Shown here: piece after piece, positions 18,547-46,676 of the stretch | How the letters are laid out: every line of letters starts with the position of its first letter | Numbering within the stretch: position 1 is the first letter of the stretch | DNA from: a virus | Reading direction: 5' to 3' (one strand) | Virus record (IMG/VR): IMGVR_UViG_3300037488_001785 | Span: 1 to 47,404 of that record | Length of the DNA: 47,404 nt | Notes under the pieces: generated by a model | What the model saw: only the letters and a program-made list of their open reading frames with translations | What the model was told of the DNA's origin: nothing | Database searches by the model: none | Made by a program: the position numbers and the translations under genes

Positions 18547-18675
18547 GCGGAACCTCTAGTGTGTCGGCGTTCGCCGGAATTCAGATCGTGGGGGGAGCGT
18601 GAATTTCTTCGTACAAACAGAAACTAGCGGCCCAGGCTGTTTCGACGAGCGAACGGACCTCTACCTAGAGGAAAA
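18547..18675 (-). other. Leader region of the giant fibre gene
   Basis: About 130 bases with small palindromes: CCTCTA/TAGAGG at 18658-18671, near the end of the preceding gene, and CGGCG/CGCCG at about 18562-18573. AGAGGTTCCGC precedes the ATG. No clear -35/-10 pair is seen. Confidence 0.4.
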
Positions 18676-29030: not shown

Positions 29031-29036
29031 GGCCCG

Positions 29037-29065
29037 AGAGTAGGTACGATTGTCTGACGACGCAA
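29037..29065 (-). promoter_or_regulatory. Promoter of the kinase-peptidase cluster (likely leaderless)
   Basis: On the minus strand: -35 TTGCGT (29065-29060), 17-base spacer, -10 TACTCT (29042-29037), then 6 bases to ATG 29030. Confidence 0.6.
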
Positions 29066-29071
29066 GCGGCG

Positions 29072-31813: not shown

Positions 31814-31821
31814 GACGGGGG

Positions 31822-31830
31822 AGGCTAACA
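31822..31830 (-). promoter_or_regulatory. Putative extended -10 promoter of the SNF2 gene
   Basis: TGTTAGCCT on the minus strand, 8 bases before ATG 31813. No -35 box at the usual distance. Confidence 0.4.
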
Positions 31831-31861
31831 CACAGGCGCAAGCGGCGCACATCAAAAACGC

Positions 31862-31890
31862 TTGCACCTATAGGCGCACTGTGTCACACC
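31862..31890 (+). promoter_or_regulatory. Possible promoter of the phosphatase gene
   Basis: -35 TTGCAC (31862-31867) and a poor -10 (CACACC) at 17 bases spacing, 6 bases before GTG 31897. The spacing fits the other leaderless promoters but the -10 sequence is weak. Confidence 0.3.
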
Positions 31891-31896
31891 GAGCCG

Positions 31897-32361
31897 GTGG
31901 CACCACGGAACCAACGGCTCGACTTCCACTGGATTCTCGACGGGAAGCTGGCGCAGGGGGCGTACCCCAAGCCGCCGATCGAGGCGTTCGGGCCGTTCGA
32001 CATCGTTGTTTTCTGCGCCGAAGAGCTGCAACCCCGACTTGTCGCCCTGCCACGGACGAAAAAGGCGGTCTACGTCCCGATGGACGACAACCCCTACCAG
32101 CCTGTCCCGACCGCCGACGCGAAAAGGGTCCGAGAGGTCGGTGAGATGCTCGCTAAGGACGTGCTGGCGGGCAAGCGCGTGCTCGTGACGTGCGCGATGG
32201 GGGCGAACCGCTCGGGGCTCGTCACGGGGATGACCCTGCGTGCGCTCGGGCACGGGGGCGTGGAGTCGGTGTCCCTCATCCGCGAACGGCGAATCCTCGG
32301 GGACGGCCAGAAGGCGCTCTTCAACCCGATCTTCGCGTCGTTCGTCGAGAGCAGCAAGTAG
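31897..32361 (+). CDS. Dual-specificity/tyrosine phosphatase-like protein
   Basis: A 154-residue protein with GTG start. The P-loop CAMGANRSG (C99 to R105) is the CX5R signature of cysteine phosphatases; the usual His before the Cys is Thr98. MDD at residues 62-64 could supply the general acid, and the helix LVTGMTLRALGHG follows as in dual-specificity phosphatases. It should remove phosphate from Ser/Thr/Tyr, or from a nucleotide or RNA 5' end, as some family members do. It leads a plus-strand unit with the 146-residue gene and an SNF2 helicase. Its presence with three kinase-like proteins suggests a phosphorylation switch. Confidence 0.8.
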   Translation: MAPRNQRLDFHWILDGKLAQGAYPKPPIEAFGPFDIVVFCAEELQPRLVALPRTKKAVYVPMDDNPYQPVPTADAKRVREVGEMLAKDVLAGKRVLVTCAMGANRSGLVTGMTLRALGHGGVESVSLIRERRILGDGQKALFNPIFASFVESSK

Positions 32362-32363
32362 CC

Positions 32364-32804
32364 GTGTCTGCCGACGTGGCGAGGAAGCCGAAGCTCGAAA
32401 TCCCTGCGTCCGCTCGATACAAAACCGCCGAGGGGCTCGCCAGCACTTTCTACCGAGCGCAGAAGGAGGTCATGCTGTCGGACATCAACAACAGCTTGCT
32501 CCCCTACTTCGCCCGGAAGTACCTGAAGTTCTTCTTCGAGGTGCCCCAGGAAGACGTCAAGCGAGCGCTGCTCCACGGAGACCCTTGGTTCTTCATCGCC
32601 TGGCGCGGGCGGCTCGCAGAAGTAGACCGGACGATGATCGAGACGGGGCGCGCTGTAACCGATCGGTGGTCCTTGGCACGCGCCCAACATATGCTTACCC
32701 TCATGCAGATGGTCGCTGACAAGAGGCTCGTCGCGCTCGGGGGCGTGGCGACGCACGCGGAAAACAATGGCGAAGCTGCGAATCCAACTGGGAAGAACGA
32801 CTGA
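32364..32804 (+). CDS. Hypothetical protein between phosphatase and helicase
   Basis: A 146-residue protein. I use GTG 32364, two bases after the phosphatase stop; no ATG exists before VMLSDINNSLL. It is mostly helical, with an aromatic patch YLKFFFEVPQEDVKR and WFFIAWRGRLAEVDR. The last 38 bases overlap the start of the SNF2 gene in another frame, a long overlap that suggests a shared transcript. No family recognised. Position suggests a partner of the helicase or the phosphatase. Confidence 0.6.
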   Translation: MSADVARKPKLEIPASARYKTAEGLASTFYRAQKEVMLSDINNSLLPYFARKYLKFFFEVPQEDVKRALLHGDPWFFIAWRGRLAEVDRTMIETGRAVTDRWSLARAQHMLTLMQMVADKRLVALGGVATHAENNGEAANPTGKND

Positions 32805-35568
32805 CGGCGAGCCGGTTTTCTTCACCAAAATCTCGTACCAGCAGATGCACGCCCGCAAGGCGCTGCACAGAGCGGGCTTCTACTACGCGGGGGACGACTC
32901 CCACGTCAAAGCCCCTGACTGCGTGCCAGCGAACGGCTGGTGGACGAAAAAACCGGAGGCGGCAGCCCACTTCCTTGACTTCGCCGACACGGACGCGATC
33001 GAAGTGCTCCTGCCGATCGCGGAGCACATGGCGCGGAGCCGCGCCACGGACTGCAACAAGTTCGACGTCTCTCTCGTGCCGAACGGCAAGCGACCCTACG
33101 GCTACCAGAAAGCGGGGGTGACGTTCGCGCTAGGCCGGTACGCGGCGGGATCGAAAGGTGTCCTGATCGCTGACGAAATGGGGCTGGGGAAAGCTCAGCC
33201 GTTGAGCGCTCGTCTCCTGACCCCTACGGGTTGGACCACAATGGGTGCGATCCGGGTGGGCGACCTTGTAGTCGGCTCCAATGGGAAACCGACCGAAGTG
33301 ACGGGAGTATTCGACCAGGGTGTGAAGGAGATTTTTCGTGTTGTCTTCAGTGACGGCTCCGCCACTGAGTGCTGCGACGAGCACCTCTGGCTCGTCAACT
33401 CTGCGCTGCGAAAGTGGAGGAAGAACGATCCGCGTGCCCTACCCCTCTCACAGATTCGTAAAAGGCTCGCGAAAACTAACGGGAACAGACTGCACTATAT
33501 CCCCTTGGTCGCTCCTGTAGCCTTCGAGGGGCGAACCGACTTCGTTCTCGATCCCTACCTACTCGGAGCATTGCTCGGAGATGGGGGGATCGCGCACCAC
33601 GTCATGTTCTCCTCGGCCGACGCAGACATGGTCGAGACGATCAGATCCTTGTTACCGCCGGGTCAATCGATCAAACACAACAGCAACTACGATTGGTGTA
33701 TCTCGGGCACAGGCCGCGTCGGGGGCAACATCACCCTGAACGAGCTTCGCCGTCTGGGGTTGTTCGGTAAGAAATCAGAGACTAAATTCATCCCAGACGA
33801 ATACAAATTCGCATCTGTCGAGGTTCGCCAAAAGGTCTTGCAGGGTCTTCTCGACACCGACGGCCATGTCCGCCCAGACAACAATATCGAATACTGTTCC
33901 TCGTCGAAAATGTTGGCAGAGGATGTCCAGTTTTTAGTAGAGTCTCTAGGTGGTACAGCGAGGATTCGCCCGAAGAAGACGAAATGCTTGCCCTCCTACC
34001 GGATGAGTGTGGCGCTGCCCCCGCAGATCCTCCCCTTCCGTTTGCCTCGAAAGGCCGACGTCTATCACCCGAGGGGGGAATACCCGCCTTCCCGATCCAT
34101 CGTATCTGTGACCCCCGTCGGTCTGGGGCAAGCCCGCTGCATCTCCGTAGCGGCCCTTGACCATCTCTACGTCACCGATCGCTTCCTCGTCACGCACAAT
34201 ACCATTCAAGCCGTCCTCGTCGCAAATTCACTCCCCGTCGGTGCGAAAATCCTCGTGCTCTGCCCCGCTTCAGTGATCTCGAACTGGGGTTCGGAGCTGT
34301 CGAAGTGGGACACAAAGAGGCGGGTGGTCTCCCTCATCACAGACACCCACCAGAAGCCAGGTACGGACGTGTTCGTGATGAACTACGACCGCTTCGCGGG
34401 CGCGTCGGGGGACGACATCACGACGGCGTTGATGACCCAACGGTGGTCGCTCATCATTCTGGACGAAGCGCACAAGCTCAAGAACCCGGCGTCGAGTAGG
34501 ACGCGGAATATCTTCGGCCACTACGATCACGGCGTCCGCGTCTCCCCTGGTCTCATCCACGTCAGCGAGCGGCTGCTCGCGCTCACGGGAACCCCCGTCG
34601 AGAACCGCGTCAAGGAGTTCCTGCCGCTGCTCCGCGCACTCGAAGCCGACGTCACGCGCAACGAGGCCGAATACCTGTTCCGGTTCTGCGGTGCGGTACA
34701 GCGAAAGGACGGGACGTGGAACTTCGAGGGCAGCACGCGCTGCGAGCAACTCCAAGACGCGCTGCGCTCGGACGTCATGGTTCGTCGCCTGAAGCATCAG
34801 GTCTTCGTAGATATGCCCCCTAAGATCCGCTCGATCGCCTACCTCAACTGCGGCGACGTCGCGGAGTCCTACCGCAAGCGTGAGCGGTCGGTGGTTCAAG
34901 GGCTCGACAAGCTCGAAGCCGATGTGTCGGCGTTGTCGGAGACGGGGGCCGACTTCGCAAAGGCTGTCAACTCGCTCACGAGCAAGCACTGCCCCTTCCA
35001 AGAGGTCGCCGCCCTGCGCTCCGCGCTCGCAGCGGTCAAGGCTCCGTCTGTCTGCGGCTACGTCTCGGACCTACTCAGCAACGGGCACGGAAAGATTCTC
35101 GTCTTCGGGCACCACAAGCTCCTCCTCGATGTGCTGTCCCGGTGCTTCACGGGGCGATCGACTGTGAGGATCGACGGGACGACAAACATCAAGAAACGCC
35201 AGGGGATCGTGGACACGTTCCAGAACGACCCTTCCGTGCGCCTCGCCATCCTCTCGACGCGCGCCGCAGGCATCGGCCTGAATCTCACGGCGGCGTCTAC
35301 CGTGGTCTTCGCGGAAGCCGACTGGAACCCGTCGTGGCTCCAACAGGCGGAGGACCGCGTCCATCGTATCGGACAGACCGCCGATGCTGTGAACATCCAC
35401 TACCTGATCGTGGATGGTACGCTCGACGCACACGTCATCAAGACGGCCATCGCGAAGATGGACATCGCTGAACGTGTGCTCGACGCGGAATACTCCCTCG
35501 ACGCCGCCGGTATCGCCGCCGAGACACAGTTCGGCGACGACGACGACGCGGAGGAGGACGCAGCCTAA
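32767..35568 (+). CDS. SNF2-family helicase (SMARCAL1-like core) interrupted by an intein
   Basis: A 933-residue precursor, giving a 597-residue helicase after splicing. Motifs: I DEMGLGK-T (split by the intein after Lys142), II DEAH (about 565), III LTGTP (about 606), VI RVHRIGQTA (about 866). The N-terminus has a region RIQLGRTTDGEPVFF and the C-terminus is acidic (DDDDAEEDAA). The compact core and short N-terminus resemble SMARCAL1/HARP annealing helicases, which rewind DNA and remodel forks. Splicing is required because the intein separates Lys and Thr of the P-loop. It is convergent with a zinc-ribbon gene by four bases. Confidence 0.9.
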   Translation: MAKLRIQLGRTTDGEPVFFTKISYQQMHARKALHRAGFYYAGDDSHVKAPDCVPANGWWTKKPEAAAHFLDFADTDAIEVLLPIAEHMARSRATDCNKFDVSLVPNGKRPYGYQKAGVTFALGRYAAGSKGVLIADEMGLGKAQPLSARLLTPTGWTTMGAIRVGDLVVGSNGKPTEVTGVFDQGVKEIFRVVFSDGSATECCDEHLWLVNSALRKWRKNDPRALPLSQIRKRLAKTNGNRLHYIPLVAPVAFEGRTDFVLDPYLLGALLGDGGIAHHVMFSSADADMVETIRSLLPPGQSIKHNSNYDWCISGTGRVGGNITLNELRRLGLFGKKSETKFIPDEYKFASVEVRQKVLQGLLDTDGHVRPDNNIEYCSSSKMLAEDVQFLVESLGGTARIRPKKTKCLPSYRMSVALPPQILPFRLPRKADVYHPRGEYPPSRSIVSVTPVGLGQARCISVAALDHLYVTDRFLVTHNTIQAVLVANSLPVGAKILVLCPASVISNWGSELSKWDTKRRVVSLITDTHQKPGTDVFVMNYDRFAGASGDDITTALMTQRWSLIILDEAHKLKNPASSRTRNIFGHYDHGVRVSPGLIHVSERLLALTGTPVENRVKEFLPLLRALEADVTRNEAEYLFRFCGAVQRKDGTWNFEGSTRCEQLQDALRSDVMVRRLKHQVFVDMPPKIRSIAYLNCGDVAESYRKRERSVVQGLDKLEADVSALSETGADFAKAVNSLTSKHCPFQEVAALRSALAAVKAPSVCGYVSDLLSNGHGKILVFGHHKLLLDVLSRCFTGRSTVRIDGTTNIKKRQGIVDTFQNDPSVRLAILSTRAAGIGLNLTAASTVVFAEADWNPSWLQQAEDRVHRIGQTADAVNIHYLIVDGTLDAHVIKTAIAKMDIAERVLDAEYSLDAAGIAAETQFGDDDDAEEDAA
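33193..34200 (+). other. Intein in the helicase P-loop, with LAGLIDADG endonuclease
   Basis: 336 residues, from Ala143 to Asn478, between GLGK and T. The N-terminal splicing block begins AQPLSARLLTPTGWTTMG, and block B-like CCDEHLWLV and the C-terminal block RFLVTHN+T are present. The first residue is Ala, not Cys/Ser, so splicing should use the direct Ala1 (class 2-like) route. Endonuclease motifs LLGALLGDGGI and LQGLLDTDGHV are LAGLIDADG dodecapeptides with both Asp residues, so homing activity is likely intact. Confidence 0.88.
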
Positions 35569-35957
35569 CGACCGAAGACCGTCGCTTGGTAGATGTTCTG
35601 CGGCAAGACGCCGGAGCGGACCCCGGTATCGACGTGGTTCTTGACCTCGTGCCACGGCACGACGAAGCGCTGCTCGGAGCCGCAGACGGGGCACTTCGGC
35701 TGCGTGAGCACGCCTTGCCGCGTCGGCGTCGTCTCGGGCACAGGCTGCCCGACGAACCACGCTGCCAGCTCGACCCACTTCGTGACCATCTTCCACTGGC
35801 GACCGCACTTCATGCAGTTGCCGGTGTAGAGGACGCCGGAGCGCGTCACCTCTTCCTTGACGTTGTCGAGCTGCTCGAAGTCGAGCCCTTCCAGAACATC
35901 GACGGCGGTGCTTCGGGCTCCCCGCCCCTCACTCCACAGCTTGTGCTTGTCTTGCAT
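35565..35957 (-). CDS. Zinc-ribbon protein
   Basis: A 130-residue protein from ATG 35957. CMKCGRQW (about residues 49-55) and CPVCGSEQ (about 89-96) form a zinc ribbon around a strand-rich middle. The N-terminal helix VLEGLDFEQLDNVKEEVTRSG is acidic. It may act in transcription or replication as a nucleic-acid-binding adaptor. TGTTACACT lies 6 bases before its start codon, so it has its own leaderless promoter despite the kinase gene upstream on the same strand. Confidence 0.65.
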   Translation of the reverse strand: MQDKHKLWSEGRGARSTAVDVLEGLDFEQLDNVKEEVTRSGVLYTGNCMKCGRQWKMVTKWVELAAWFVGQPVPETTPTRQGVLTQPKCPVCGSEQRFVVPWHEVKNHVDTGVRSGVLPQNIYQATVFGR

Positions 35958-35963
35958 GGAGCC

Positions 35964-35972
35964 AGTGTAACA
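35964..35972 (-). promoter_or_regulatory. Extended -10 promoter of the zinc-ribbon gene
   Basis: Minus strand TGTTACACT, with the -10 box ending 6 bases before ATG 35957. No clear -35 box. Confidence 0.45.
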
Positions 35973-35978
35973 CGCCTC

Positions 35979-37625
35979 TCAGCGTTTGCGAGAGGTGCGG
36001 CGACGGTTCTTGGACAATTTCCGAGGACGGCTTCGTTTCTGGGCTAACTCTTCCGCGAGTTGGGGGTAGCGGCGGAACGCCTCGGCGACCGCATCTTTCA
36101 GCTCGGAGGGGACCGAAAGGCCCAGGGACTCGCGAGCGGTGATGCTCTCGATGATGATGCGATCGAGGTTCATACGCAGGTAGAACTCAGCAGATCCACG
36201 CTCACCTGTCCGCTCAGCGTCCAGCATTTTTCGGATAAAGTGGGCGTGCCACAGGAGCATCGGGAGGGTTTCGATGTCCACCCCCATCATTCGCTGCGCC
36301 AGAGACGAGAGCAGAGAGGAGACAGACGTGTCTCGGGGGTTGTAGGGCTCCTGCTCCTCGCTCTTCGGGCGGATCGCCATCGGATGCCAGATGCCGACGT
36401 CCGCGACGAAGAAGCTGCCGTCGGGGCGGCGATACAAGTCGATCTGATCCTCGACACGCCAGCCAATAGACTCGACGCGCGTCAGCTCGCGCTCGACCTG
36501 CTCATACTCACGGTTCGTGAGCCGCTCGACAGGCTCGCCGTACTCTCGGATGAGCGCAGGCAGGCCGTCCGCCGTCTCAACGTAGACGACCTCGGGGACG
36601 ATGCTCACACCTAGCTCGCGAAGTTCGTTCGCGACGCCTGCCTCGTGCATGAAGTTGCGAACGTGATCCTCGGGCTTCCACGGCTGCCCGTGGATGTTCT
36701 CGGCGGCGGGGAGCTTCACCACGATCGGACCCGTCGGTAGGTCGATCTTGTACGTCTCGCCGAAATTGCCGCGACCTAAGAACGTCACGGGCTCCCGCTT
36801 GCGCGCCAGCTCCGCGACGCCGAGCGCCCGAAGCACCTCGGGCAGATCCTTGTGCCCTTCAGTGAGGTGCGGTGGAATCGTCGTCCAGTACCCTTCCGAC
36901 CTCTCCTCCGTCGCCCTGCTCCCGTCAAAGTCCTCGTACTCGTGCTGGACCGTTCGGTAGTCGTAACGATTCCGAGAAGCGCGGGCGGGGTTCGGAGCCA
37001 GATCGAGCTTGGATGTGAAGAGGGGGCCGAGGACGAGCTTCCCAGCGCGACCGATGATGTGTTGGCCGACCATGCCCTGCCGAAGCGCTTTGATCCACGC
37101 TGGCTTGAGGTGTCGCGCTCGCAAACCTCGCGGGAAGATGTGGACCTCGACCATCTCGTCGGGACCGCAAAGTTCGGAGAGCGCGTACATCCGGTTCCGA
37201 CCTTCGTGCCCGACCACGAGAGCTGGTTCGTAGATGTGGAAATCGCTGTCTTCCCAGTTGTCAGGGATACGAACGTCGAGCATCGGCGATGCGATCTTAC
37301 CTCCGTTTTGCATATGCTCGACCAGTGAATCAGCACTGCGCGCCATCGACCGCGCAAGGGGTGGTGAGAGCGCGTGGAACACGCTCGGCGACATCCTCAC
37401 GCGCAAGCCGAGGTAGTCCACGTTGCCGTTGTTCGGCGTCGCACCTGCACCGTCCCGGTTGTCGATGTAGGTGTCGCTACACGACGCGCCGTTGCGCTGG
37501 ACGTACTCAGGGAGGTCGGCGATGCTTGGCGTCTCGCGCGCCCACTGCTCCGCCTTCGCCCGCGTGAAGCCTGGGATTCGTCCACCGAAGGCGGCTCGGA
37601 GCTGAGCTTTCGAGCGAAATGGCAT
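35979..37625 (-). CDS. Kinase-like protein C fused to an N-terminal MPFRSKAQ phage domain
   Basis: A 548-residue protein from ATG 37625. Residues 1-40 (MPFRSKAQLRAAFGG ... WARETPSIADLPEYV) match a short domain found as a stand-alone protein in many phages (MPFKSKAQ...ETP...LPE). A ParB/Srx-like region (about 80-180, VGHEGRNRMYALSEL) follows. The kinase-like part has LGRGNFGETYKI (about 280), IVVKLPA (about 302) and FVADVGIWHP (DFG-like, about 410). Its catalytic loop (VEDQIDLYRRPDGS) lacks the D-x-H-x-x-N pattern of kinases A and B, so it may be a pseudokinase. The tail KNRRRTSRKR repeats the R-T-S-R motif. Confidence 0.65.
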   Translation of the reverse strand: MPFRSKAQLRAAFGGRIPGFTRAKAEQWARETPSIADLPEYVQRNGASCSDTYIDNRDGAGATPNNGNVDYLGLRVRMSPSVFHALSPPLARSMARSADSLVEHMQNGGKIASPMLDVRIPDNWEDSDFHIYEPALVVGHEGRNRMYALSELCGPDEMVEVHIFPRGLRARHLKPAWIKALRQGMVGQHIIGRAGKLVLGPLFTSKLDLAPNPARASRNRYDYRTVQHEYEDFDGSRATEERSEGYWTTIPPHLTEGHKDLPEVLRALGVAELARKREPVTFLGRGNFGETYKIDLPTGPIVVKLPAAENIHGQPWKPEDHVRNFMHEAGVANELRELGVSIVPEVVYVETADGLPALIREYGEPVERLTNREYEQVERELTRVESIGWRVEDQIDLYRRPDGSFFVADVGIWHPMAIRPKSEEQEPYNPRDTSVSSLLSSLAQRMMGVDIETLPMLLWHAHFIRKMLDAERTGERGSAEFYLRMNLDRIIIESITARESLGLSVPSELKDAVAEAFRRYPQLAEELAQKRSRPRKLSKNRRRTSRKR

Positions 37626-37630
37626 GGCGG

Positions 37631-37659
37631 AAAGTACCAAGAAGACCGAGAGGGTGCAA
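37631..37659 (-). promoter_or_regulatory. Promoter of kinase-like gene C (likely leaderless)
   Basis: -35 TTGCAC (37659-37654), 17-base spacer, -10 TACTTT (37636-37631), then 5 bases to ATG 37625. Confidence 0.65.
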
Positions 37660-37683
37660 ACTATACACCTGTTCAGCCCGACC

Positions 37684-37712
37684 TTGCGCTTCGGACAGAG
37701 GCGACTTACCGT
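37684..37712 (+). promoter_or_regulatory. Promoter of the secreted wall hydrolase (likely leaderless)
   Basis: -35 TTGCGC (37684-37689), 17-base spacer, -10 TACCGT (37707-37712), 8 bases before ATG 37721. It runs opposite to the kinase C promoter about 25 bases away. Confidence 0.65.
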
Positions 37713-37720
37713 GCGCCCCC

Positions 37721-38365
37721 ATGACGAAGCACATCCTCTTCGCCGCTCTGCTCCTTGCGTGTTCGACGCCTGTGGCAGCGCAAGACGCCCCCATCAACCC
37801 TGACCGGACCGTGAACCCCGAAACACTGATCGAGAACCGCAACGCCGACCCCCGTGTGACCGCCGCCGAAGACCCGGCGTTACTCCTCGCCCAAGCGCTC
37901 GTCGCTGAAGCGGGCTGGACCATGCACGCCGACCACGTTGCGATCCCCTATGTGATCTCCCGCCGCGCGACTCTCCCGGCCTTCCGCCATGCGGCGCAGC
38001 CCGAGAGCGCAGTCCTGCTCGCCTACGTTTCAGCTTTCCGCTGCTACGGGCACACCTGCGACACGGAGCGCATGGGCCGGATGCGCTCGCTGACATGGCC
38101 CATGCTGGAGGCTCGCGCGCCGGAGATCGCTCGGCTGGCAAAGGCGTGGGTCCACGGAGATCGACCGCGTGACCCGTGCCCCGCTGCGTGGCATTGGGGA
38201 TCGCATCACGACGGCCGCAACTCGCCGCTGCCGATCATCTCGTGCGGGCAGACGACCAACCTGTTCCTCGGCAAGCTCTCGACGACGCCTGCGGCGTTGC
38301 CCGCCGAGCCCGGAGCCTCTGCGGTTCCCGCCCGCCTCGCCCGAGGCCAGCACGGCCCCCGGTAG
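37721..38365 (+). CDS. Secreted cell-wall hydrolase-like protein
   Basis: A 214-residue protein. Residues 1-19 are a signal peptide (HILFAALLLACSTPVAAQ). The segment LLAQALVAEAGWTMHADHVAIPYVISRRA (residues about 56-84) fits the SleB/Hydrolase_2 pattern (A-x-x-x-x-E-A... VA-x-V-x-x-R) with a likely catalytic Glu. Two Cys (CYGHTC) could form a disulfide in the periplasm. The Pro/Ala-rich end is probably flexible. Export by Sec would make it an endolysin-like or spore-cortex-type hydrolase active in the envelope. It is a single gene with its own promoter. Confidence 0.65.
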   Translation: MTKHILFAALLLACSTPVAAQDAPINPDRTVNPETLIENRNADPRVTAAEDPALLLAQALVAEAGWTMHADHVAIPYVISRRATLPAFRHAAQPESAVLLAYVSAFRCYGHTCDTERMGRMRSLTWPMLEARAPEIARLAKAWVHGDRPRDPCPAAWHWGSHHDGRNSPLPIISCGQTTNLFLGKLSTTPAALPAEPGASAVPARLARGQHGPR

Positions 38366-38392
38366 GCTCAGGACGCCGCTGTAGTAGTCGGA

Positions 38393-38412
38393 GCGGGCGC
38401 GGAGGCGCCCGC
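38393..38412. terminator. Hairpin between convergent genes
   Basis: A perfect 8-bp stem (GCGGGCGC with GCGCCCGC) with a 4-base loop, between the ends of the hydrolase gene and the 322-residue gene. It lacks a T-run on either strand, so it is at best a weak bidirectional terminator. Confidence 0.5.
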
Positions 38413-38419
38413 ACGACGT

Positions 38420-39388
38420 TCAGCCCAGGCGCTCTTGGACGACGGCGCTCGTGACGCCAGCGCGGTAGCCGATGCGGACGGTCGGGGGGACACTCGGCCA
38501 TCCTGCGCCTCCGGGGGGTACAGGCCAGTTCGGGGTGGCTGTCGGAGCAGGGTAGGGGACAGGGGCGTCGTTGGCGAGGTACGCGAGCACAACCTCGAAG
38601 GACACGCCGAGACACCGCCCGAACGCCGGGTAGGTGAAGACCTTGGTCTGTCGATAGTTAGGTGGGATGCCACCGGGGGCGGGGGCCAGATTGTCGTACC
38701 AGGGAAGGTTATCCCAGGGAGGGGTACTCGGGTTCGGCAGCGGGACGTACCACACGTCGTCGAGCAGGATCGAATCGCTCGTGTTTGGCCGCGCGATGTT
38801 CAACGGGGCCGAGCCCCAGTTCGAGGGCATCGTGTCAAGCCGCTTCGGCGAAGGATACCAGACTTTGCGATTGCCTAGCCCCAACCCGCCGCCGGAAGTA
38901 GGAACGGTCGTGTTGACGGCTGCGAACTGAGTACCAGGGGCGAACGGCTGATTCAGGACGCTCCAACCGCCGAAGACGTCGGTATCGATCTGCGAGCGAC
39001 AAGGAGTGCCGCTGGAGATCGTAGGGTCGGTGGGGTCGGGGATCATCCCACCCATGAGGGCGAAAGGGTTGCCGCTCTGCGCGGGGTCGCCAGGGGTGCG
39101 GAACTCGACGTTGCTGCGGAGCCACCAAGGCTTGATCCGCAGGCCCGAGACATACACCTCGTCCGGGTTGTCTCGCCCTACCAACTTCTGCGGGAACCCG
39201 ACTTCGAGGTAGAAGAGGATCGTCTCACCCTCGCGGAAGCAGTCGTAGCTCGGCGCATGGGGCGAGATGACAGGGATGATCGGCCCCTGATTCAAGCCTC
39301 CGTAAGAGTACGCAGTGAGCGCCTCGAAAGGGTCATACGTCCCCCTCGGGCCGATCGGTCGAAGGTCTGCGAATTCGGGTCCAGACAT
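38420..39388 (-). CDS. Hypothetical protein, possibly virion or replication associated
   Basis: A 322-residue protein from ATG 39388 (GAGG upstream). It is Pro/Gly/Trp-rich with many loops (IPVISPHAPSYDCFREGE, PWDNLPWYDNLAPAPGG) and few helices, as in beta-sandwich proteins. The C-terminal part GRCLGVSFEVVLAYLAND precedes a Pro-rich linker and RIGYRAGVTSAVVQERLG. It is the last gene of the replication-side minus operon. No family recognised. A structural protein seems more likely than an enzyme because no conserved catalytic pattern is present. Confidence 0.6.
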   Translation of the reverse strand: MSGPEFADLRPIGPRGTYDPFEALTAYSYGGLNQGPIIPVISPHAPSYDCFREGETILFYLEVGFPQKLVGRDNPDEVYVSGLRIKPWWLRSNVEFRTPGDPAQSGNPFALMGGMIPDPTDPTISSGTPCRSQIDTDVFGGWSVLNQPFAPGTQFAAVNTTVPTSGGGLGLGNRKVWYPSPKRLDTMPSNWGSAPLNIARPNTSDSILLDDVWYVPLPNPSTPPWDNLPWYDNLAPAPGGIPPNYRQTKVFTYPAFGRCLGVSFEVVLAYLANDAPVPYPAPTATPNWPVPPGGAGWPSVPPTVRIGYRAGVTSAVVQERLG

Positions 39389-39410
39389 ATTGCCTCGGAG
39401 GGTAGCTTGC

Positions 39411-40223
39411 TCAGGTTGCCCTGGCAACCACCTTGTTCACCAGCACCGGACGGATGCCGGGGATGTTCGTGAACCCCTTCGTCTCCTTGACTGCCGCCAA
39501 GAGAACAGCGTGGTTGATGACCTTGAACTTTTCCGGCACGAGGCCGAAGGCCACGACCTCGTAGGTCCACTCCTCGCGCACGCTCACGCCGTCGATCTTC
39601 GGAGGCGCGGGGGGCACCGCAGCGATAGCGATCTGCGTCGCAGCGCTGTCCCCCGCCGAGTGCGCGGCGGCGGCGGCGGCGAGCGCAGCTTGACGCTCTT
39701 GTGCGCGGAGGGTGTGGTACGCAGCGATCTTCTCCTTGAGCGTCTTCTCGGCCGCCGCGTAGTGGTCCTGGGCGGGCTTGAACCACGAGCGAATGGTGGC
39801 GAGCGCGGCGTTGAGCGGGCCGGTCGCCTGCTTCTTTCGCTCTTCGAGCCGGTTGTAGTGACCCTTGACTTCGCCGAGAATTTCAGCGGCGAAGGCCAGG
39901 TCGGCATCGCTGGTGATCGGGAGACCTTGAATCTCTGTGAGCGCTTCGCGCGCTACGCCGACCTCGTCCTCCGCCTCAGCCTGCACCGACGGGGAGGCGA
40001 GCTGCGTCCCGACGGTCTCCCCCACCGCGTCGATGACCGCCGTAGACGACGGCATGGGCTCCGTGGGCGTCGCCTGCGTCATGTCTCCCTTGGAGTGTCG
40101 CTCGCAGAGCGGCACCTGCACCCCTTCGCGACCGAACGGCGTGCCCTCGACGAGCACCACCGACGGCGACTGGCACCTCATCACACCGCACTCACCCTGC
40201 TTGAACGACTTGACGATATTCAT
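39411..40223 (-). CDS. Coiled-coil phage protein with N-terminal Cys/His cluster
   Basis: A 270-residue protein from ATG 40223 (AAGGGG upstream, ATGA overlap). Residues 12-46 contain C-x4-C and C-x2-H, which may bind zinc. Residues about 90-190 form a long helix (YNRLEERKKQATGPLNAALATIRSWFKPAQD), the pattern of a widespread phage and plasmid coiled-coil protein often found beside recombination or replication genes. A C-terminal domain (WTYEVVAFGLVPEKFKVINHA ... GIRPVLVNKVVARAT) ends it. It probably supports recombination or replication, but its activity is unknown. Confidence 0.65.
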   Translation of the reverse strand: MNIVKSFKQGECGVMRCQSPSVVLVEGTPFGREGVQVPLCERHSKGDMTQATPTEPMPSSTAVIDAVGETVGTQLASPSVQAEAEDEVGVAREALTEIQGLPITSDADLAFAAEILGEVKGHYNRLEERKKQATGPLNAALATIRSWFKPAQDHYAAAEKTLKEKIAAYHTLRAQERQAALAAAAAAHSAGDSAATQIAIAAVPPAPPKIDGVSVREEWTYEVVAFGLVPEKFKVINHAVLLAAVKETKGFTNIPGIRPVLVNKVVARAT

Positions 40224-40537
40224 ATCAAAATCCCCTTCGTTTGTAGGTATTCCAGCGCTTGCGTTTCTGTGATGGCTCCCTCGGACTGGAGCGCGACGAC
40301 GACGCCGACGAGCATCTGTTTCTCGATGAATTTCGGAACGAAAAGCAGCAGGGCACCGGGCAGGACAGCGAGCAGCGGGATCGCCACCGAGAGCCCGAAC
40401 CACTGGTCCGGCTGGATGCGGAGCGGAGGGATTCCGAGTTCGCGCAAGGTCTTCCGGTACACGGAAAAAGCGTTCTGCATCCCAGACAACGCGAAGAAGC
40501 CGAGGACCGCGAGAGATGTGAAGAAAAAAGTGCTCAC
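40220..40537 (-). CDS. Small two-pass membrane protein
   Basis: A 105-residue protein from GTG 40537, overlapping the polymerase stop. Hydrophobic segments lie at about residues 2-20 (TFFFTSLAVLGFFALSG) and 48-70 (GLSVAIPLLAVLPGALLLFV). The C-terminal helix KQMLVGVVVALQSEGAITETQALEYLQ is amphipathic. Lying between the polymerase and a coiled-coil gene, it could attach replication proteins to the membrane, but that is speculation. A holin is an alternative. Confidence 0.6.
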   Translation of the reverse strand: MSTFFFTSLAVLGFFALSGMQNAFSVYRKTLRELGIPPLRIQPDQWFGLSVAIPLLAVLPGALLLFVPKFIEKQMLVGVVVALQSEGAITETQALEYLQTKGILI

Positions 40538-42648
40538 AGCGACTCCTTCGGCGACCAGGGGAGCAGGCGTCCGTTCGCGTCGTAGATCGCTGTGGCGTCC
40601 TTGGAGAAGCACGTCGAGAGGCAGGGCGTGGTCGTGAGCGGTACGTCGGGCATGAACTTGCTCCCGTACAGGCGCATGAGCCGCCCCAACTCTGTCGCGG
40701 CCTCGTGCGCAACGGGGATCGGCACCTCGCAGATGATCTGGTCATGCACGAACATCACAGGGCGCGAGCCGAAAAGAGGCGACGAGGTGTCGATGTAGCA
40801 AGCCTTCGCCACCGCATAAAGCGCAGCTTTCGCGGCATCCGCCGCGAGCGCCTGGAAGTTTCCGTTGGCGGCCTCGGTGAACGAGACCTCGCCACGGTGG
40901 CGCTCACTGAAAAACTGGACGAGGTGCGCCTTCTTGCTGAGGGGGTCGAGCTGGTTGCGCACCCATCGAAAATACTCCGACGCCTCGGGCCACGTCGCAA
41001 ACCACTGCTGTTTCAGCTCCTCGCAGCGCTCTTGGCTCAGGTTCAACCCGTACTGCGCTCGGGCGTACTCTCGGAATCCGCCGTGCCCGTCGCGGCCCGC
41101 CGCCGAGAGACCGCCAGGGAGCCCGAAGTTCAAGGCTTTCGCGAGCTGCCTGGCATCCTTGACCTTCTTCTGCCAGTCCTCCCCGTGCAAGCCCTTGGCA
41201 CACTCGGCTGCGTGCTCGTAGGTGACGCCTGAGAGCTGCGCCGCGACGTCCAAGTGGACGTCCATTCCGGCGTTGAGTCGCTCGCCCATGCGGGAGGAGC
41301 CGACCGTCAGGATGCAGACCTGCGCGAACCCGCGAAGCTCGACGCCGTCGTAGTCTGCGTCGGCGTAGTAGTAGCCCGTGCGAGGGATGAAACACTCGCG
41401 GATGCCCATGACGGGGATCATCGGGTGGTCGCATTTCTTACACTTCGTCGCGCTCGCGCTGTTCTTGAACTCGCAGACGGGGCAGCGCGGCTCCATTGCT
41501 CGGCGGATGACTTGGACGGGGTAGCCGATCGTGCCGTCGCCCTTCGCGTCACCGCTCGCCGAGGTGCGCCCGGTTTCGAGCAATACCTCGTAGTTCGGCT
41601 GGATGGGGATGCTCGTCCCCGCCATGAGCACAGGGACGTCTTTCGTGAGGATCGTGCTGAGCGACGTGTATTGGGCGTAGTAGGAGAGGAGCTTGTCACC
41701 CGACTGATCGCAGGCGTCTTCATCGAGCGACACCTGATCCTTCTCCGTGAGTTTCAGCGGGCGGCCTTGCGCTGCCATCGCGGCCTCCATGCGCGCCTTC
41801 GCCGCTTTCGTGCTGCGCGTGACCTTGACCTTGCCGCTGCGCACCCCCGTCTGAACCGTCACGAGGCCGCCTGCGACGAGCGCGGTGCGCAAGCGGTCGA
41901 GCGTCTCCGTCGTCTGCGTCACGAGCCGAGCCACGCGAGCGCGGTCCGTTCGGATGCCGTAGACGCTCTGGAGGTGTAGCGCCCACGCCGCCTTGCACTG
42001 GCGGTCCTCATCCGTGAGCCAACCGTGCGAGCGGTACGCCTCCTGCTCGGTGTGGACGAGGAGCGGCGTTACCGTGTCTTCGCAGGGGTAGACCAGGGCG
42101 CGCTCGGGCCACGCCGAGAGGGGGACGTTCTCCAGCTCCGCGTAGCGCAGCCGCCAGCCGTCCTCCCCCTTGTCGAGCGCGGCGTCGAAGCAGCGCCGAG
42201 CGAGGTCATTCAAGCCGTAGTTGAACTGCGTCCACTTATTTTCCGCGCTGAAAAAGCCCCGGTAGCAACCGGCGGCAATGTCAAGGAGTTTCTGCCGAAT
42301 CAGAACGTCTCGGATTCGGTTCGCGTCGTAAGCGTCGAAGATTTTCCGCAGGAGGTGGGGCCACTTCGCCGCGATGACCCCCATGTCAAAAGCGATGTTC
42401 GCGCCGACGAGGATGACCTCCTCGGTGTCGAGAAGCTCTTCGACGAAGGGTAGTGCTTGGTCGTGGCGCAGGAGGCCGGACCACATACCGCAGCCGGTCG
42501 GCGCCGGAACGGTCGAACGAAAGTAGCCTTCCTGTGTGATCGGGCCTTGAATGTCCGCAGCGGTATGAGCCCACGATGTGCAGACGAGCGGAGGCGTGAG
42601 CAACCCCGGTCGAATGAGGTGCGTCTCGGTGTCAAGACCGACGAGCAT
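40534..42648 (-). CDS. Family A DNA polymerase with 3'-5' exonuclease
   Basis: A 704-residue protein, the usual length for phage Pol A without a 5' nuclease domain. The exonuclease domain starts MLVGLDTETHL (D6, E8), followed by NIAFDMGV and a later CEDTVTP. Polymerase motifs: A ADADYDGVELRG (about 426), B RQLAKALNFGL (about 496), C MFVHDQIICEV (about 631). Two oddities: a zinc-ribbon-like insert CPVC...CKKC (about 386-406) lies just before motif A, and motif C reads HDQ rather than HDE. It is in one operon with the ssDNA-type protein, helicase and RusA gene, so it is the probable phage replicase. Confidence 0.93.
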   Translation of the reverse strand: MLVGLDTETHLIRPGLLTPPLVCTSWAHTAADIQGPITQEGYFRSTVPAPTGCGMWSGLLRHDQALPFVEELLDTEEVILVGANIAFDMGVIAAKWPHLLRKIFDAYDANRIRDVLIRQKLLDIAAGCYRGFFSAENKWTQFNYGLNDLARRCFDAALDKGEDGWRLRYAELENVPLSAWPERALVYPCEDTVTPLLVHTEQEAYRSHGWLTDEDRQCKAAWALHLQSVYGIRTDRARVARLVTQTTETLDRLRTALVAGGLVTVQTGVRSGKVKVTRSTKAAKARMEAAMAAQGRPLKLTEKDQVSLDEDACDQSGDKLLSYYAQYTSLSTILTKDVPVLMAGTSIPIQPNYEVLLETGRTSASGDAKGDGTIGYPVQVIRRAMEPRCPVCEFKNSASATKCKKCDHPMIPVMGIRECFIPRTGYYYADADYDGVELRGFAQVCILTVGSSRMGERLNAGMDVHLDVAAQLSGVTYEHAAECAKGLHGEDWQKKVKDARQLAKALNFGLPGGLSAAGRDGHGGFREYARAQYGLNLSQERCEELKQQWFATWPEASEYFRWVRNQLDPLSKKAHLVQFFSERHRGEVSFTEAANGNFQALAADAAKAALYAVAKACYIDTSSPLFGSRPVMFVHDQIICEVPIPVAHEAATELGRLMRLYGSKFMPDVPLTTTPCLSTCFSKDATAIYDANGRLLPWSPKESL

Positions 42649-42675
42649 AGAAACGATCTCCCGAGAAAAAGTTGA

Positions 42676-42712
42676 GTAGAGGCGGCCCAGCGGCCCGACG
42701 GGCCGCCTCTAC
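42676..42712. terminator. Hairpin between the polymerase gene and the upstream gene
   Basis: A perfect 13-bp stem (42676-42688 with 42700-42712) with an 11-base loop. On the minus strand it is followed after a few bases by ttttt, so it may partly terminate before the polymerase gene. An alternative inner hairpin (GCGGCCC-GAC-GGGCCGC) overlaps it, which could work like an attenuator. Confidence 0.7.
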
Positions 42713-42734
42713 CGGAGCGAACCGGACGGTCAGA

Positions 42735-43325
42735 TCAGGGCTGGCGGACGTCGTCCGTCTGCGGGTTCCAGATCCAGCCCGGCGACGTCGGGTGCGCCTG
42801 GTAGCCAGCGGGCATCGTCTTCGTAGCCGGAGGCGTCGGCGGGGCAGGGGGCGGCGGGGCGGCGGGGGCGGCCTTCGCGGTCGAGGTGAGCTTGGTCGCA
42901 CCCTCGGGCTCCGAGAGGAACGCCCACTGGTGGATCGTGAAGTCGGTGTTGCGGCGGGTCTTCGTGATCGTGCAGGAGAGGCGCATGAGCGTCCCCGCGA
43001 GCGGGTTCGAGTCCGAGCAGGCGAGGTCGCACTCGTCCTCGGTGATGTGGTCGGCGGGCACGTCGAGCGCCGCCGCCATGAAGCCCTTGATGTTGCCGGG
43101 GGCCGACTCGTGCTTGCTCAGGTTGATGACCTGCGAGCACCGCGTGCCGGGGCGACGCTCCGGGTTGTCCGACTCGACGATCTCGGTCTCGATCACGAAC
43201 ATATTCTCGTTCATGCGAGAGAGGATCATCTTCACCGCGACGATCTTGACCTTGAACGTCCCCGCGAGGAAGTAGATCCCGCCGCCGTTGACCGAAGCAC
43301 CGTTGACTGCGCTGAAAATACCCAT
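42735..43325 (-). CDS. Conserved phage protein, probable ssDNA-binding/replication accessory
   Basis: A 196-residue protein from ATG 43325 with AGGTGA upstream. Residues about 10-120 (GGGIYFLAGTFKVKIVAVKM, MFVIETEIVESDNPERRPG, KHESAPGNIKGFMAAAL) match a pattern I know from phage replication clusters, thought to be OB-fold-like ssDNA-binding or recombination mediators. The C-terminus is a Pro/Ala linker with a final short motif GYQAHPTSPGWIWNP, rich in aromatics, as in SSB-type protein-contact tails. It sits between the polymerase and helicase. Confidence 0.6.
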   Translation of the reverse strand: MGIFSAVNGASVNGGGIYFLAGTFKVKIVAVKMILSRMNENMFVIETEIVESDNPERRPGTRCSQVINLSKHESAPGNIKGFMAAALDVPADHITEDECDLACSDSNPLAGTLMRLSCTITKTRRNTDFTIHQWAFLSEPEGATKLTSTAKAAPAAPPPPAPPTPPATKTMPAGYQAHPTSPGWIWNPQTDDVRQP

Positions 43326-43394
43326 AACTTCACCTATTCTGTCGATGTGATGTTGCGATCGAAACACCCGCGCCGGAATGGAGCGGAGAGACTG

Positions 43395-46300
43395 CTACCA
43401 CCGTGGTCCGATGGTGTCCTTCATATCAAGTACAAGGTCGGCGTACAGCAACTTCTGCGGCGAGCCGAGCGTGTCTTGCAGATACCTCGCATCCGCGAGC
43501 GCTTGTAGGAAGCCGTCCATCTGCTCTTTGCAGGCGAACATGACATCGTAGCTGACTTCGTCAGCTTCTTGACCTTCTCTGTGGGTTCGACCGAGGCAGT
43601 TCCCGACCACCGCGACTTTCCCGTTTCGTCGCGTAACAATGGCGCCCGAGTCCACAGACACGCACCACACTCGCTCCGATGTCGAAGAGGGGAGCACACC
43701 CCAACGCTGACGGCCATCCGAAATCTTCAATGTTGTGACTGTCCAGGTGGTGTCCTCCGAGATACGCAGCATCCACACACTCTCCCCCCTGGAGATATTG
43801 CAGCGCAAACCACGGCGAATGCAAAGCGACTGCACTTTATCTGCGACGCTCTTCCTCCGGGTTGCGATGTTTTGCGTTCCTGGGGTGTACCTATCGTAGT
43901 CGTACGTTCCAGGGGTCTTACTCCCGTCGCCGAGCCACAGTCCGTGGAGAAAGACGAGAAGTTGCTCTCGCGTCATCGCATCCAGCGTGTCCGGCATCTC
44001 CTTGTCGATGTAAGGAGCGAGTCGCCCCCAACCTGTGCCGCCTTTAGTCCGCCTGGGCATACCCTTCGACATGGTCCACTTGTGTAAGGGGTGTTTCCGT
44101 TCCCCGTAGTTTGAAGGTGTCGTGCAAATAGAGTGTCCGAACCTGAAATCAAGCTCCGCCAGGGTCTTCTCGATTGTCGCGATGATGTCGGGATACCGCG
44201 TAGACTGGAACAGGGCCAATGTGTTGTTTTTAGGGGAGAGATTTCCATCGGACATGAAAAGTCCGATGAAGGTCAGCTCGGCATCTGACAGAGGTACACC
44301 TTCTGCGGATTGTACCCCCGCCAGCGGGACTCTCGCCCGTTGCGGCATCTTGGCGGCCTCTATGAACTCTCGCGGGGAATACACAAAACCGTCACGACCT
44401 CCGTTGCCGAAACGCCGCATCCTTTGCACAACCATGCGGTGCCCAGCAGTCACCCGGATGTCCAGATGGGGGTTCGAGATACCAAACATATCCTCTTCGC
44501 CGAGAAGACGTTCGACCCTTCGACCTTCTGACCAGTGTATGCTGCCATCGGAAATGCTGTACGCGGCTACCTTGGACGTGATCGAGTCGTCTATCCCCTT
44601 CCACCCCTCCTCCGTTAGAACTTCTGTCCGCTCATCGAGGCATTGCTCCCAGGTCTTCCCGCTCGGGGGGCAAGAAACCACGAGGCTCTTGTTCCACTGT
44701 TGCAAGTTGCGACCTTCCGCGTTTGCGGCAATCGAAGCGATGCACGGCCCTCGTCCGTCCTCGATCATGCGCTTCTGCTTGTCGAGCCCGCCGCCGCCAT
44801 AGTAAGACAGGCCGGTCAACTCCGCAAGACGTTCACCGAACGCAATGTGCTCTACCCAGCAGATTCCGTCGTTCTTTCTCAACCACTCTGCGGCGAAGCG
44901 GAGAGTGCCGTCGGATACCCATACAGCCTCTTGGTTCGGTACGAAGGTGTCGCGGATCTCCCGCCACGCGAGGTACTCCGTGTTCGGCAGATCCCCCTTG
45001 GCGCAAGCGTTGGCGACAGGCAGCTCGGAGTCGAGCCCAGGACGGTGCATCGAGAGGATGTCCCGAGCGAAGCGCGCCCAGTTTCGACGTGCTGTAAGCC
45101 ACTCCTCCGGCGGACGAGGGTTCCAGCGGTAGTAGAAGCCACAGGCTAGCTCGCGGGCGTGACGCCAGAGCTGGAAGCCGTCGATGACAGGGTGGTCGTC
45201 AGGCGTGAGCCAGTCCTTGCGCAGCTTGAGGAAGGCTTCGTCGAGGGCGCTCCCGAGCTGAGGTTGAACCGCCGAGATTGACAGCGATGCGCCGAGGAGA
45301 GACTCGCTGGTCGCGACGACCCCCGGCGTCTCGGTGAGCCGACGCTGGTACGCCTTCCGCGCGAGTGAGAGTGCAACGGAATCGGCTGCGTCGTGGATTC
45401 TCTGCTGGTCGGCGGGCTCGCAGAGCTGCGAGAGCGCACCGACGCTGAGACGCTGCATATCTTGGATTTTCTCGTCGAGCGCGTTTGACCATTCTTCGAG
45501 ATCGTACTGCGTCGAAGGGAGCGGCGAAGAGTAGGGCAGGCACCATCGGATGATGTGCGCGTAGTCGCGGAGCGAACGCATCGTGATCGTGCCGGAGAGT
45601 GCGACGAACTTTGTCGTCGGATTCTCCTTCATCCATGTACTGATTTTTCGGGTCACGGAGGCATTTTTGTTCTTGACCCTGTGCGTTTCGTCACAGATAA
45701 TCAAGTCTGGTGCGACTTCGGCGAGCAGCTTCCCGCCGTTCTCGCGACTGAGGATTTCGTAGGAAAGGATCGCGGGCGGCACGATCCTGAAATGCCGCTG
45801 GTAGTTGCCGATTTCTCGGATCGTCTTGTCTCGCAGCTTCGCGGGGAGGATGAGCAGCGGGCGCTTCGCTTCGAGGACGATGGGTGCTAGGAGCGACACG
45901 GCGGTATTGTGAGTCAGGATGCAGAAGCGCGTCGCGTAGAGCTGGTCGGGCGCGTCTACGGAGATGCAGGTCATTTCCGCGTTTGTGCCGGTGTCGTCGA
46001 TGTAGTGGACGATGCGAGACGGGCGCTCTGTACCATCCGCAGCAGCCCGCACGAGGTCGTCTGTCAGTGTCAGATGTGGCAGTTGATGCGCGATGCTGAA
46101 ATCTTCGGCAGCCCACTCGGCGGCCGTTCTCGTCTCGTCTTCGCAAGCGGTCCGATGCAACGTCCACAGATGCCCCGGATCGCAAAGAGCGTACGCCCCG
46201 CCCGAGAAAGTGATCCGCCAAACGGGGCGCATACCTTGGGGGAAGACACCCGTCACGGCGTGTAGCTGCCCGTCCGACCCATAGATGCGATCACCGACGC

Positions 46301-46676
46301 GGACCTCCCCGATCGGCGTCCAACCGCGCTCCAAGAGAACCGGCTCCGTATTCGGTTGAGCTTTGCCGCTGCCCACCTGCATGGGGCCGAAGAGTCCGCC
46401 GTAGTCGTGCATCTCCGCGAGCGCCTTCGCTTGGACGGGGCGCAGGACCATCGTGCCCTGTGGCATCCGAAGCCACTGCTGCATATCCGCGAGAAGCTCG
46501 GGGAAACCGGGCTCATCCTTGCTCCACTCGCGGCGAGGGAGCGCGAGGATGCGGCGCAGCTCGGCAGAATCCTTGACGCCTGAGCGTCGGAAGATTTTCC
46601 CGACCCGAGAAGACTTCGTGAAGTCCTCTGGGCTCTTGCCGGAATACGACAGCAGCTTAGCGAGTGCAGAGGTCAT
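43395..46676 (-). CDS. SNF2/DEAD-like helicase carrying two inteins
   Basis: A 1093-residue precursor that would splice to about 593 residues. Motif I VGSGK-T (split by intein 1 after Lys105), II CDETHRV (about 325), III SGTIT (about 362), VI QCLGRTHREGQ (split by intein 2 after Gln678). The N-terminal part has a small helical domain and LRPVQAKALAEMHDYGGLF, a Q-motif-like region. It resembles phage SF2 helicases used for replication or recombination. It overlaps RusA, suggesting a common role at branched DNA. Without splicing, both ATP-binding motifs would be disrupted. Confidence 0.88.
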   Translation of the reverse strand: MTSALAKLLSYSGKSPEDFTKSSRVGKIFRRSGVKDSAELRRILALPRREWSKDEPGFPELLADMQQWLRMPQGTMVLRPVQAKALAEMHDYGGLFGPMQVGSGKAQPNTEPVLLERGWTPIGEVRVGDRIYGSDGQLHAVTGVFPQGMRPVWRITFSGGAYALCDPGHLWTLHRTACEDETRTAAEWAAEDFSIAHQLPHLTLTDDLVRAAADGTERPSRIVHYIDDTGTNAEMTCISVDAPDQLYATRFCILTHNTAVSLLAPIVLEAKRPLLILPAKLRDKTIREIGNYQRHFRIVPPAILSYEILSRENGGKLLAEVAPDLIICDETHRVKNKNASVTRKISTWMKENPTTKFVALSGTITMRSLRDYAHIIRWCLPYSSPLPSTQYDLEEWSNALDEKIQDMQRLSVGALSQLCEPADQQRIHDAADSVALSLARKAYQRRLTETPGVVATSESLLGASLSISAVQPQLGSALDEAFLKLRKDWLTPDDHPVIDGFQLWRHARELACGFYYRWNPRPPEEWLTARRNWARFARDILSMHRPGLDSELPVANACAKGDLPNTEYLAWREIRDTFVPNQEAVWVSDGTLRFAAEWLRKNDGICWVEHIAFGERLAELTGLSYYGGGGLDKQKRMIEDGRGPCIASIAANAEGRNLQQWNKSLVVSCPPSGKTWEQCLDERTEVLTEEGWKGIDDSITSKVAAYSISDGSIHWSEGRRVERLLGEEDMFGISNPHLDIRVTAGHRMVVQRMRRFGNGGRDGFVYSPREFIEAAKMPQRARVPLAGVQSAEGVPLSDAELTFIGLFMSDGNLSPKNNTLALFQSTRYPDIIATIEKTLAELDFRFGHSICTTPSNYGERKHPLHKWTMSKGMPRRTKGGTGWGRLAPYIDKEMPDTLDAMTREQLLVFLHGLWLGDGSKTPGTYDYDRYTPGTQNIATRRKSVADKVQSLCIRRGLRCNISRGESVWMLRISEDTTWTVTTLKISDGRQRWGVLPSSTSERVWCVSVDSGAIVTRRNGKVAVVGNCLGRTHREGQEADEVSYDVMFACKEQMDGFLQALADARYLQDTLGSPQKLLYADLVLDMKDTIGPRW
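43599..44642 (-). other. Intein 2 of the helicase, with LAGLIDADG endonuclease
   Basis: 348 residues from Cys679 (CLDERTEVLTEEGWKG) to Asn1026 (GKVAVVGN), with Cys as the +1 residue. It sits inside helicase motif VI. Block B-like ITVTAGH-type sequence is visible as RVTAGHRMV. Endonuclease motifs FIGLFMSDGNL and LHGLWLGDGSK have both acidic residues. The penultimate residue at the C-terminus is Gly instead of the usual His, a known variant. Confidence 0.88.
45906..46361 (-). other. Intein 1 of the helicase, mini-intein without endonuclease
   Basis: 152 residues from Ala106 (AQPNTEPVLLERGWTPIG) to Asn257 (RFCILTHN), inserted between Lys and Thr of the P-loop. No LAGLIDADG motif is present and the length is that of a minimal splicing domain. 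It begins with Ala and ends THN before Thr, as does the intein in the helicase at 32767, at the same conserved site. Confidence 0.88.

Follow-up and report, generated by a model that had tools for sequence, protein, structure and literature searches.

Two inteins inserted at the same catalytic site in two helicases of one virus raise the question of whether one is a copy of the other. This situation occurs in IMG/VR record IMGVR_UViG_3300037488_001785, all 47,404 bases of which make up the window analyzed here. The original prediction described three inteins in two SNF2-type helicases and suggested that the two at the P-loop were related by homing between paralogous genes, with loss of the endonuclease from one of them. 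Translation confirmed all three inteins, and their boundaries, at the residue level. The find holds up, although most of it is of an ordinary kind: we consider it very probable that three separately acquired inteins, two of class 3 (int1 and int2) and one of class 1 (int3), occupy the ATPase motors of two helicases in a virus whose hosts are bacteria.

Helicase 1 (32767..35568, plus strand; exteins of 597 aa) was identified as an open reading frame with Pfam matches to SNF2-rel_dom (2.2e-27) and Helicase_C (1.2e-16) and a PHROG match to phrog_62, DNA helicase (1.9e-84). Its intein, int1 (33193..34200, plus strand; 336 aa), was delimited by translation, signature residues, and Pfam and lies exactly between Lys and Thr of the sequence GLGK|T, which we take to be the Walker A motif; the names Walker A, for the int1 and int2 sites, and motif VI, for the int3 site, are those in general use for SNF2 helicases. 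The junctions read DEMGLGK|AQPLSARLL...FLVTHN|TIQAV. Residue 1 of int1 is Ala, rather than Cys, Ser, or Thr, as expected of class 3, and the class 3 triplet, read directly from the translation, is present as W66 (Trp B:12), C316 (Cys F:4), and T334 (Thr G:5), followed by Thr at +1. These are the published marks of class 3 inteins (Trp B:12, Cys F:4, Thr G:5, and Ser or Thr at +1), as given in PMC5222942, PMC3196547, and PMC7664689. A LAGLIDADG_3 domain scored above the Pfam cut-off (3.9e-10), and both of its motifs (LLGALLGDG and LQGLLDTDG) retain the acidic residue. The endonuclease appears to be intact, so int1 may still be capable of homing.

Helicase 2 (43395..46676, minus strand; exteins of 593 aa) was recognized from its open reading frame, from weaker matches to SNF2-rel_dom (1.9e-06, Pfam) and phrog_62 (9.2e-09), and from an alignment with 30 relatives. 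It carries both int2 and int3. The former (45906..46361, minus strand), defined by translation, signature residues, and a fold model, is a class 3 mini-intein of 152 aa without an endonuclease, and like int1 it sits precisely at the Lys-Thr junction of the Walker A motif, here GSGK|T, with the junctions MQVGSGK|AQPNTEPVL...CILTHN|TAVSL. Again, residue 1 is Ala instead of Cys, Ser, or Thr, the triplet is present (W66 as Trp B:12, C132 as Cys F:4, and T150 as Thr G:5), and the +1 residue is Thr. An AlphaFold model of int2 had a mean pLDDT of 76, with a poorly modeled linker at residues 89 to 114, and its best PDB matches in Foldseek were 6riy, 6rix, and 6bs8 (E values of 1.9e-07 to 1.2e-06). The top eight matches comprised the class 3 inteins MchDnaB-1 and M. 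smegmatis DnaB and a gp41-1 intein engineered to carry the class 3 triplet, such that the predicted HINT fold of int2 resembles those of solved class 3 inteins. Besides fold, the M. smegmatis DnaB intein 1 (6bs8) and M. chimaera DnaB1 (6rix and 6riy) inteins share the WCT triplet and mini-intein size with int2. Only about 40 residues separate blocks B and F of int2, and the linker sequence IAHQLPHLT aligns to a segment lying immediately ahead of the endonuclease in relatives of full length (e.g., NHQLPDLAP in L062), which makes descent of int2 from a full-length ancestor by endonuclease deletion plausible. A search for close relatives with peptide patterns specific to int2 retrieved none. The same insertion site, the shared AQP start and THN end, and the pairing of one endonuclease-bearing P-loop intein with one mini-intein were thus all correctly predicted, except that two of the three inteins in the window (int1 and int3), not one, carry LAGLIDADG motifs.

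The third intein, int3 (43599..44642, minus strand; 348 aa), interrupts motif VI of helicase 2 at WEQ|CLGRTHREGQ, with the junctions KTWEQ|CLDERTEVL...VAVVGN|CLGRTHREGQ established from the translation and signature residues. It has the marks of class 1, namely, Cys at position 1, TAGH at 65 (the TxxH of block B), a terminal Asn, and Cys at +1, while its penultimate residue is Gly in place of the His that is usual but not strictly required. We retain the class 1 assignment because a penultimate Gly has been reported in mycobacteriophage inteins, including one example that splices (PMC5050341). Two LAGLIDADG motifs (FIGLFMSDG and LHGLWLGDG) keep their acidic residues, and Pfam gave no LAGLIDADG_3 match above the cut-off in int3. 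Sequence comparison of int3 with int1 and int2 yielded no meaningful match. Judged by their signature residues, int1 and int2 are recognizable members of class 3 and int3 of class 1. A relative of int3 in Salinibacter phage M31CC-1 (L070), considered as a candidate for the same site, was set aside on account of its different insertion point; it lies in another superfamily II helicase, at GVL|CLDA...GN|TEG.

Alleles lacking the inteins were observed directly for every site. A close helicase 1 relative (L283, on a contig of 7.4 kb) is 80% identical at the protein level and syntenic with the window from 28975 to 37730; its int1 site is empty, with the BLAST DNA alignment stopping at 33191 and restarting at 34198. 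The int1 site is also empty in a second helicase 1 relative (L284; 43% amino acid identity). In helicase 2, the P-loop is uninterrupted in 30 of 30 aligned relatives, most of which were found by extein patterns, so that the search was not led by inteins, and the motif VI site is empty in 29 of the 30, the exception being L072; both sites are empty in L067, L068, L069, and 26 others. Intein-less relatives align without interruption across all three intein junctions. The third SNF2-type protein of the window (29072-31867, minus strand; open reading frame and Pfam) has an intact P-loop, GLGKT, at 30697-30683, as predicted, although the end previously given for this gene, 31813, is merely an alternative start. 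Across 32 records of relatives, no strong class 3 match was found, and the two weak matches scored 18.9 and 18.2 bits.

The shared ends of int1 and int2 were put into context with a collection of class 3 inteins, assembled by searching with int1 and with an alignment (64 plus 80 viral loci and 80 bacterial loci). The resulting set of 227 inteins consists of 218 with both ends and nine of nine phage-collection loci; it includes the two from the window and some contigs that were fetched twice, and it excludes loci without a recognizable N and C part. All 227 end in THN and 166 start with AQP, with both ends present in 166, and the insertion lies between K and T or S in 208; since two of the searches relied on patterns (CCDEHLW; ECCDEHL and TD...THN), this selection inflates how often THN ends and C-x-x-H in block B were counted. 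The AQP...THN ends are the look of most family members, and they are therefore uninformative about copying between helicases 1 and 2. PMC12245125 likewise describes a THN terminus as prevalent among class 3 inteins, and PMC5050341 terms the P-loop insertion between Lys and Thr classic. Six members of the collection (L222, L224, and L226 to L229) start with PQP or CQP, precede TP, and lie outside a GK|T P-loop. The class itself was reportedly founded on work by Brace in 2010 and by Tori and Perler in 2011.

Direct comparison showed that int1 and int2 match each other with an E value of 2e-18 across their first 69 residues (43% identity) and their last 43 residues (40%). Given this match, the Pfam LAGLIDADG_3 domain in int1, and the intein-less relatives that align through the junctions, the finding is not due to chance. 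Both inteins are members of one class 3 family, and the grouping with unrelated families that would have counted against the original prediction was not seen. Their helicases are distant from each other, the exteins being 22% identical over about 150 residues. The splicing domains of int1 and int2 are 38% identical over 112 columns. After dereplication of the family to 116 members, the median identity over all pairs is 45%, and 74.5% of pairs are at least as alike as int1 and int2. When the other 226 members were ranked by splicing-domain likeness, int2 was 205th from int1 and int1 was 80th from int2. At the DNA level, int1 ranked 49th (N part) and 5th (C part) of 226 from int2, and int2 ranked 166th and 21st from int1.

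Phylogenetic trees placed the two apart. In a quick tree of 116 rows, int1 joined L218 (support of 88) and int2 joined L181 (87). A more careful tree of 47 rows, chosen for likeness to int1 or int2, as mini-inteins, on the suggestion of the first tree, or at random (8 rows), again joined int2 to L181 (96/82) but did not resolve the placement of int1; it was built from only 112 columns, with int2 on a long branch. Constraining int1 and int2 to be sisters lowered the log-likelihood by 12.3 and was not rejected by the AU test (P = 0.204). Near block F, the two inteins share a patch of DNA identical at 29 of 35 bases, which we considered as a sign of gene conversion and rejected because such likeness is not special to this pair: when the final 66 bases are compared, int2 has four other inteins, and int1 has twenty, that match it at least as well.

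To judge what copying within a virus looks like, we surveyed within-record pairs in 50 of the 65 records first listed, one of which (that of L072) had been found with int3. A class 3 match was present in 49 of these 50 viral records, and 7 had two or more matches at an E value of ≤1e-14. The 14 within-record pairs had a median identity of 42%, versus 45% between records, and just one exceeded the 95th percentile (58%). That pair, L043 and L274, comes from IMGVR_UViG_3300036766_000194 (G026; 299,875 bases), in which two SNF2-like helicases each carry a class 3 intein in the P-loop. The two inteins are 75% alike in the splicing domain and 55% over their whole length, and they share a 130-base block with 95.4% DNA identity; their exteins, by comparison, show 33% likeness in 75 residues around the P-loop and 23% in a region further on. 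Such a contrast makes the G026 pair a good example of copying or gene conversion between helicases, a pattern that int1 and int2, to judge from the same comparisons, do not appear to share. The 1,374-aa open reading frame of L274 also contains a second class 3 intein, inserted after DECQKFK in the Walker B region and before Ser.

Int1 and int2 thus seem to have arrived separately instead of one being copied from the other, since they are not near neighbors and since the 32 records of relatives lack a strong class 3 match. Recent copying between them appears very unlikely from the identities, ranks, and trees, even though the AU test leaves a sister relationship unrejected, and ancient copying, though conceivable, is not favored. 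The splicing-domain phylogeny proposed with that prediction bore out the common family but put int1 and int2 apart in the best trees; endonuclease loss, the other half of the scenario, stands as plausible through the IAHQLPHLT alignment, whereas homing between the paralogues is unsupported, given the 38% identity, the low ranks, and ends that are found throughout the family. The proposed search of relatives for empty sites succeeded for both helicases.

We regard as unlikely an old homing event within this lineage, in which an int1-like element moved between helicases 1 and 2, in either direction, through similar P-loop DNA, followed by endonuclease loss from the helicase 2 copy. It would account for the same K|T insertion point with AAA|ACC at both junctions. 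Intragenomic spread would also explain why a single virus has two class 3 inteins in P-loops when 0 of 32 records of relatives have a strong match, although two or more matches at an E value of ≤1e-14 do occur in 7 of the 50 viral records surveyed above. The process itself can be seen in G026, and the AU result is compatible with it. It fits poorly with an identity below the family median, with the low mutual ranks of the splicing domains, with the DNA ranks given above, with the grouping of int2 with L181 in both trees, and with the dissimilar block B residues (C-D-E-H versus D-P-G-H). A bolder version, to which we give little credence, holds that helicase 2 is doubly locked, with a class 3 mini-intein in Walker A and a class 1 homing intein in motif VI so that an active ATPase would need two chemically different splicing reactions, and that the intein in its P-loop was copied long ago from helicase 1 within the genome and has been kept by selection since its endonuclease was lost, for example, as a switch for the onset of helicase activity.

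It is also conceivable, but extremely improbable, that the int1 endonuclease keeps int2 mobile in trans by cutting empty P-loops of either gene. The AAA|ACC junction bases are common to both genes, and the empty helicase 2 P-loops of L067 and L068 read AAA|ACC as well; however, the bases upstream of the junction differ between helicases 1 and 2, and the peptide-pattern search turned up int2 nowhere else. A search for helicase 1 in the L067 and L068 records gave no real match (one weak match in the two records). Finally, one or more of the inteins could be dead, in which case the interrupted helicase would not be produced. A nonsplicing class 3 intein without Cys F:4 is described in PMC3196547, but the signature residues are retained in all three inteins of the window and all frames are open, and we consider this reading quite improbable.

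The preferred reading, separate acquisition, includes the horizontal movement of int3. A homolog of int3 was found at a single locus in the viral collection, L072, which was also the one strong match in the 32 records of relatives. It occupies the same motif VI site and is 59% identical to int3, and the P-loop of that helicase is empty. The helicase of L072 is 37% identical to window helicase 2 and 92% identical to that of L305, in which the int3 site is empty. In the quick helicase tree, starred branches separate the two occupied alleles, and even counting just those branches, two changes are required. The +1 codon follows the intein: Cys is found at +1 in both occupied alleles (TGC at 43596..43598, minus strand, in the window, from the helicase 2 alignment) and in 0 of 29 empty ones, where the residue is Leu in 19, Val and Met in 4 each, and Ser and Ala in 1 each. 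The occupied L072 junction reads GAGCAG|intein|TGTCTCGGGCGCCTG, with TGT as the +1 codon, and the empty L305 site reads GAGCAA|ATGCTCGGGCGCCTG, with ATG. Because the inteins are more alike than their helicases (59% versus 37%) and lie across the starred branches from each other, the simplest reading is that int3 moved horizontally between distant viruses together with its +1 codon. The L072/L309 and L305 helicases, 92% identical, with and without int3 and with Cys and Met at +1, seem to differ by a recent gain or loss of the intein. This is a known kind of pattern: in haloarchaeal MCM-d, as described in PMC10643990, +1 is Ser in invaded alleles and mostly Pro in uninvaded ones, which was read as co-conversion during invasion. 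Both cases have a splicing-competent +1 residue only in occupied alleles, but that host protein is an archaeal MCM with Ser versus Pro, while int3 resides in a viral helicase with Cys versus Leu, Val, Met, Ser, or Ala.

Splicing chemistry, endonuclease activity, and the loss of helicase activity before splicing are proposed here by analogy with the respective intein families. In int1 and int2, the block F Cys (C316 and C132, respectively) would attack the N-terminal junction by the known class 3 route, the N-extein would be transferred to Thr +1, and the final Asn would cyclize, restoring the native GKT P-loop. Int1, with its endonuclease, might still home, and int2 would be a mini-intein that has probably lost its own. 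Int3 would splice by the class 1 route through Cys1 and Cys+1, and it carries an endonuclease and appears to spread from virus to virus, importing its own +1 Cys codon. Until the inteins are removed, the ATP site of each helicase would be interrupted and the helicase presumably inactive.

Several known systems resemble parts of this arrangement. According to PMC6195587, M. smegmatis DnaB has a class 3 mini-intein in its P-loop and a class 1 endonuclease intein in the same helicase, the pairing found in helicase 2. The mycobacterial inteins differ in host protein (DnaB rather than an SNF2-type helicase), in the class 1 insertion site (a DNA-binding loop rather than motif VI), and in the +1 residue (Ser rather than Thr). 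A class 3 intein within a Snf2 protein, that of Deinococcus radiodurans, has been shown to splice, as cited in PMC3196547. SNF2-type helicases related to helicase 1 occur in Erythrobacter phage vB_EliS-L02 (L233), Mesorhizobium phage Cp1R7A-A1 (L235), and uncultured phage LR756508 (L236), with protein identities of 32%, 29%, and 35%, respectively, over the matched parts; their class 3 inteins, like int1, directly follow GLGK or GVGK and precede T, but they start with GHP or AGP, not AQP. None of the papers surveyed by title and the beginning of the abstract describes a pair of P-loop inteins in paralogous helicases from a single phage. The window provides a clean natural set for the study of intein dynamics, with two mechanistic classes, inteins with and without an endonuclease, and two helicases in one virus, made more useful by nearby empty alleles (the 80% identical helicase 1) and by the +1 Cys that travels with int3. 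Its matching AQP...THN ends are a family mark and a warning against reading recent copying into them; record G026 is the better example of copying between helicases within one virus.

No near DNA match to the second half of the window was present among 50,697 phage records, and no tRNA genes were found in its 47,404 bases. An integrase-like gene (11561-12652, plus strand; PHROG integrase, 8.8e-30) suggests that the virus may be temperate. Pfam identified a family A DNA polymerase at 40534-42648, and a polymerase relative that we examined (L314) was uninformative for the intein question. Most of the remaining large open reading frames searched had no Pfam or PHROG match. A 1,461-aa frame on the plus strand (no Pfam or PHROG match) and a 1,403-aa frame on the minus strand (no NCBIfam or PHROG match) overlap nearly entirely at 14242-18627.
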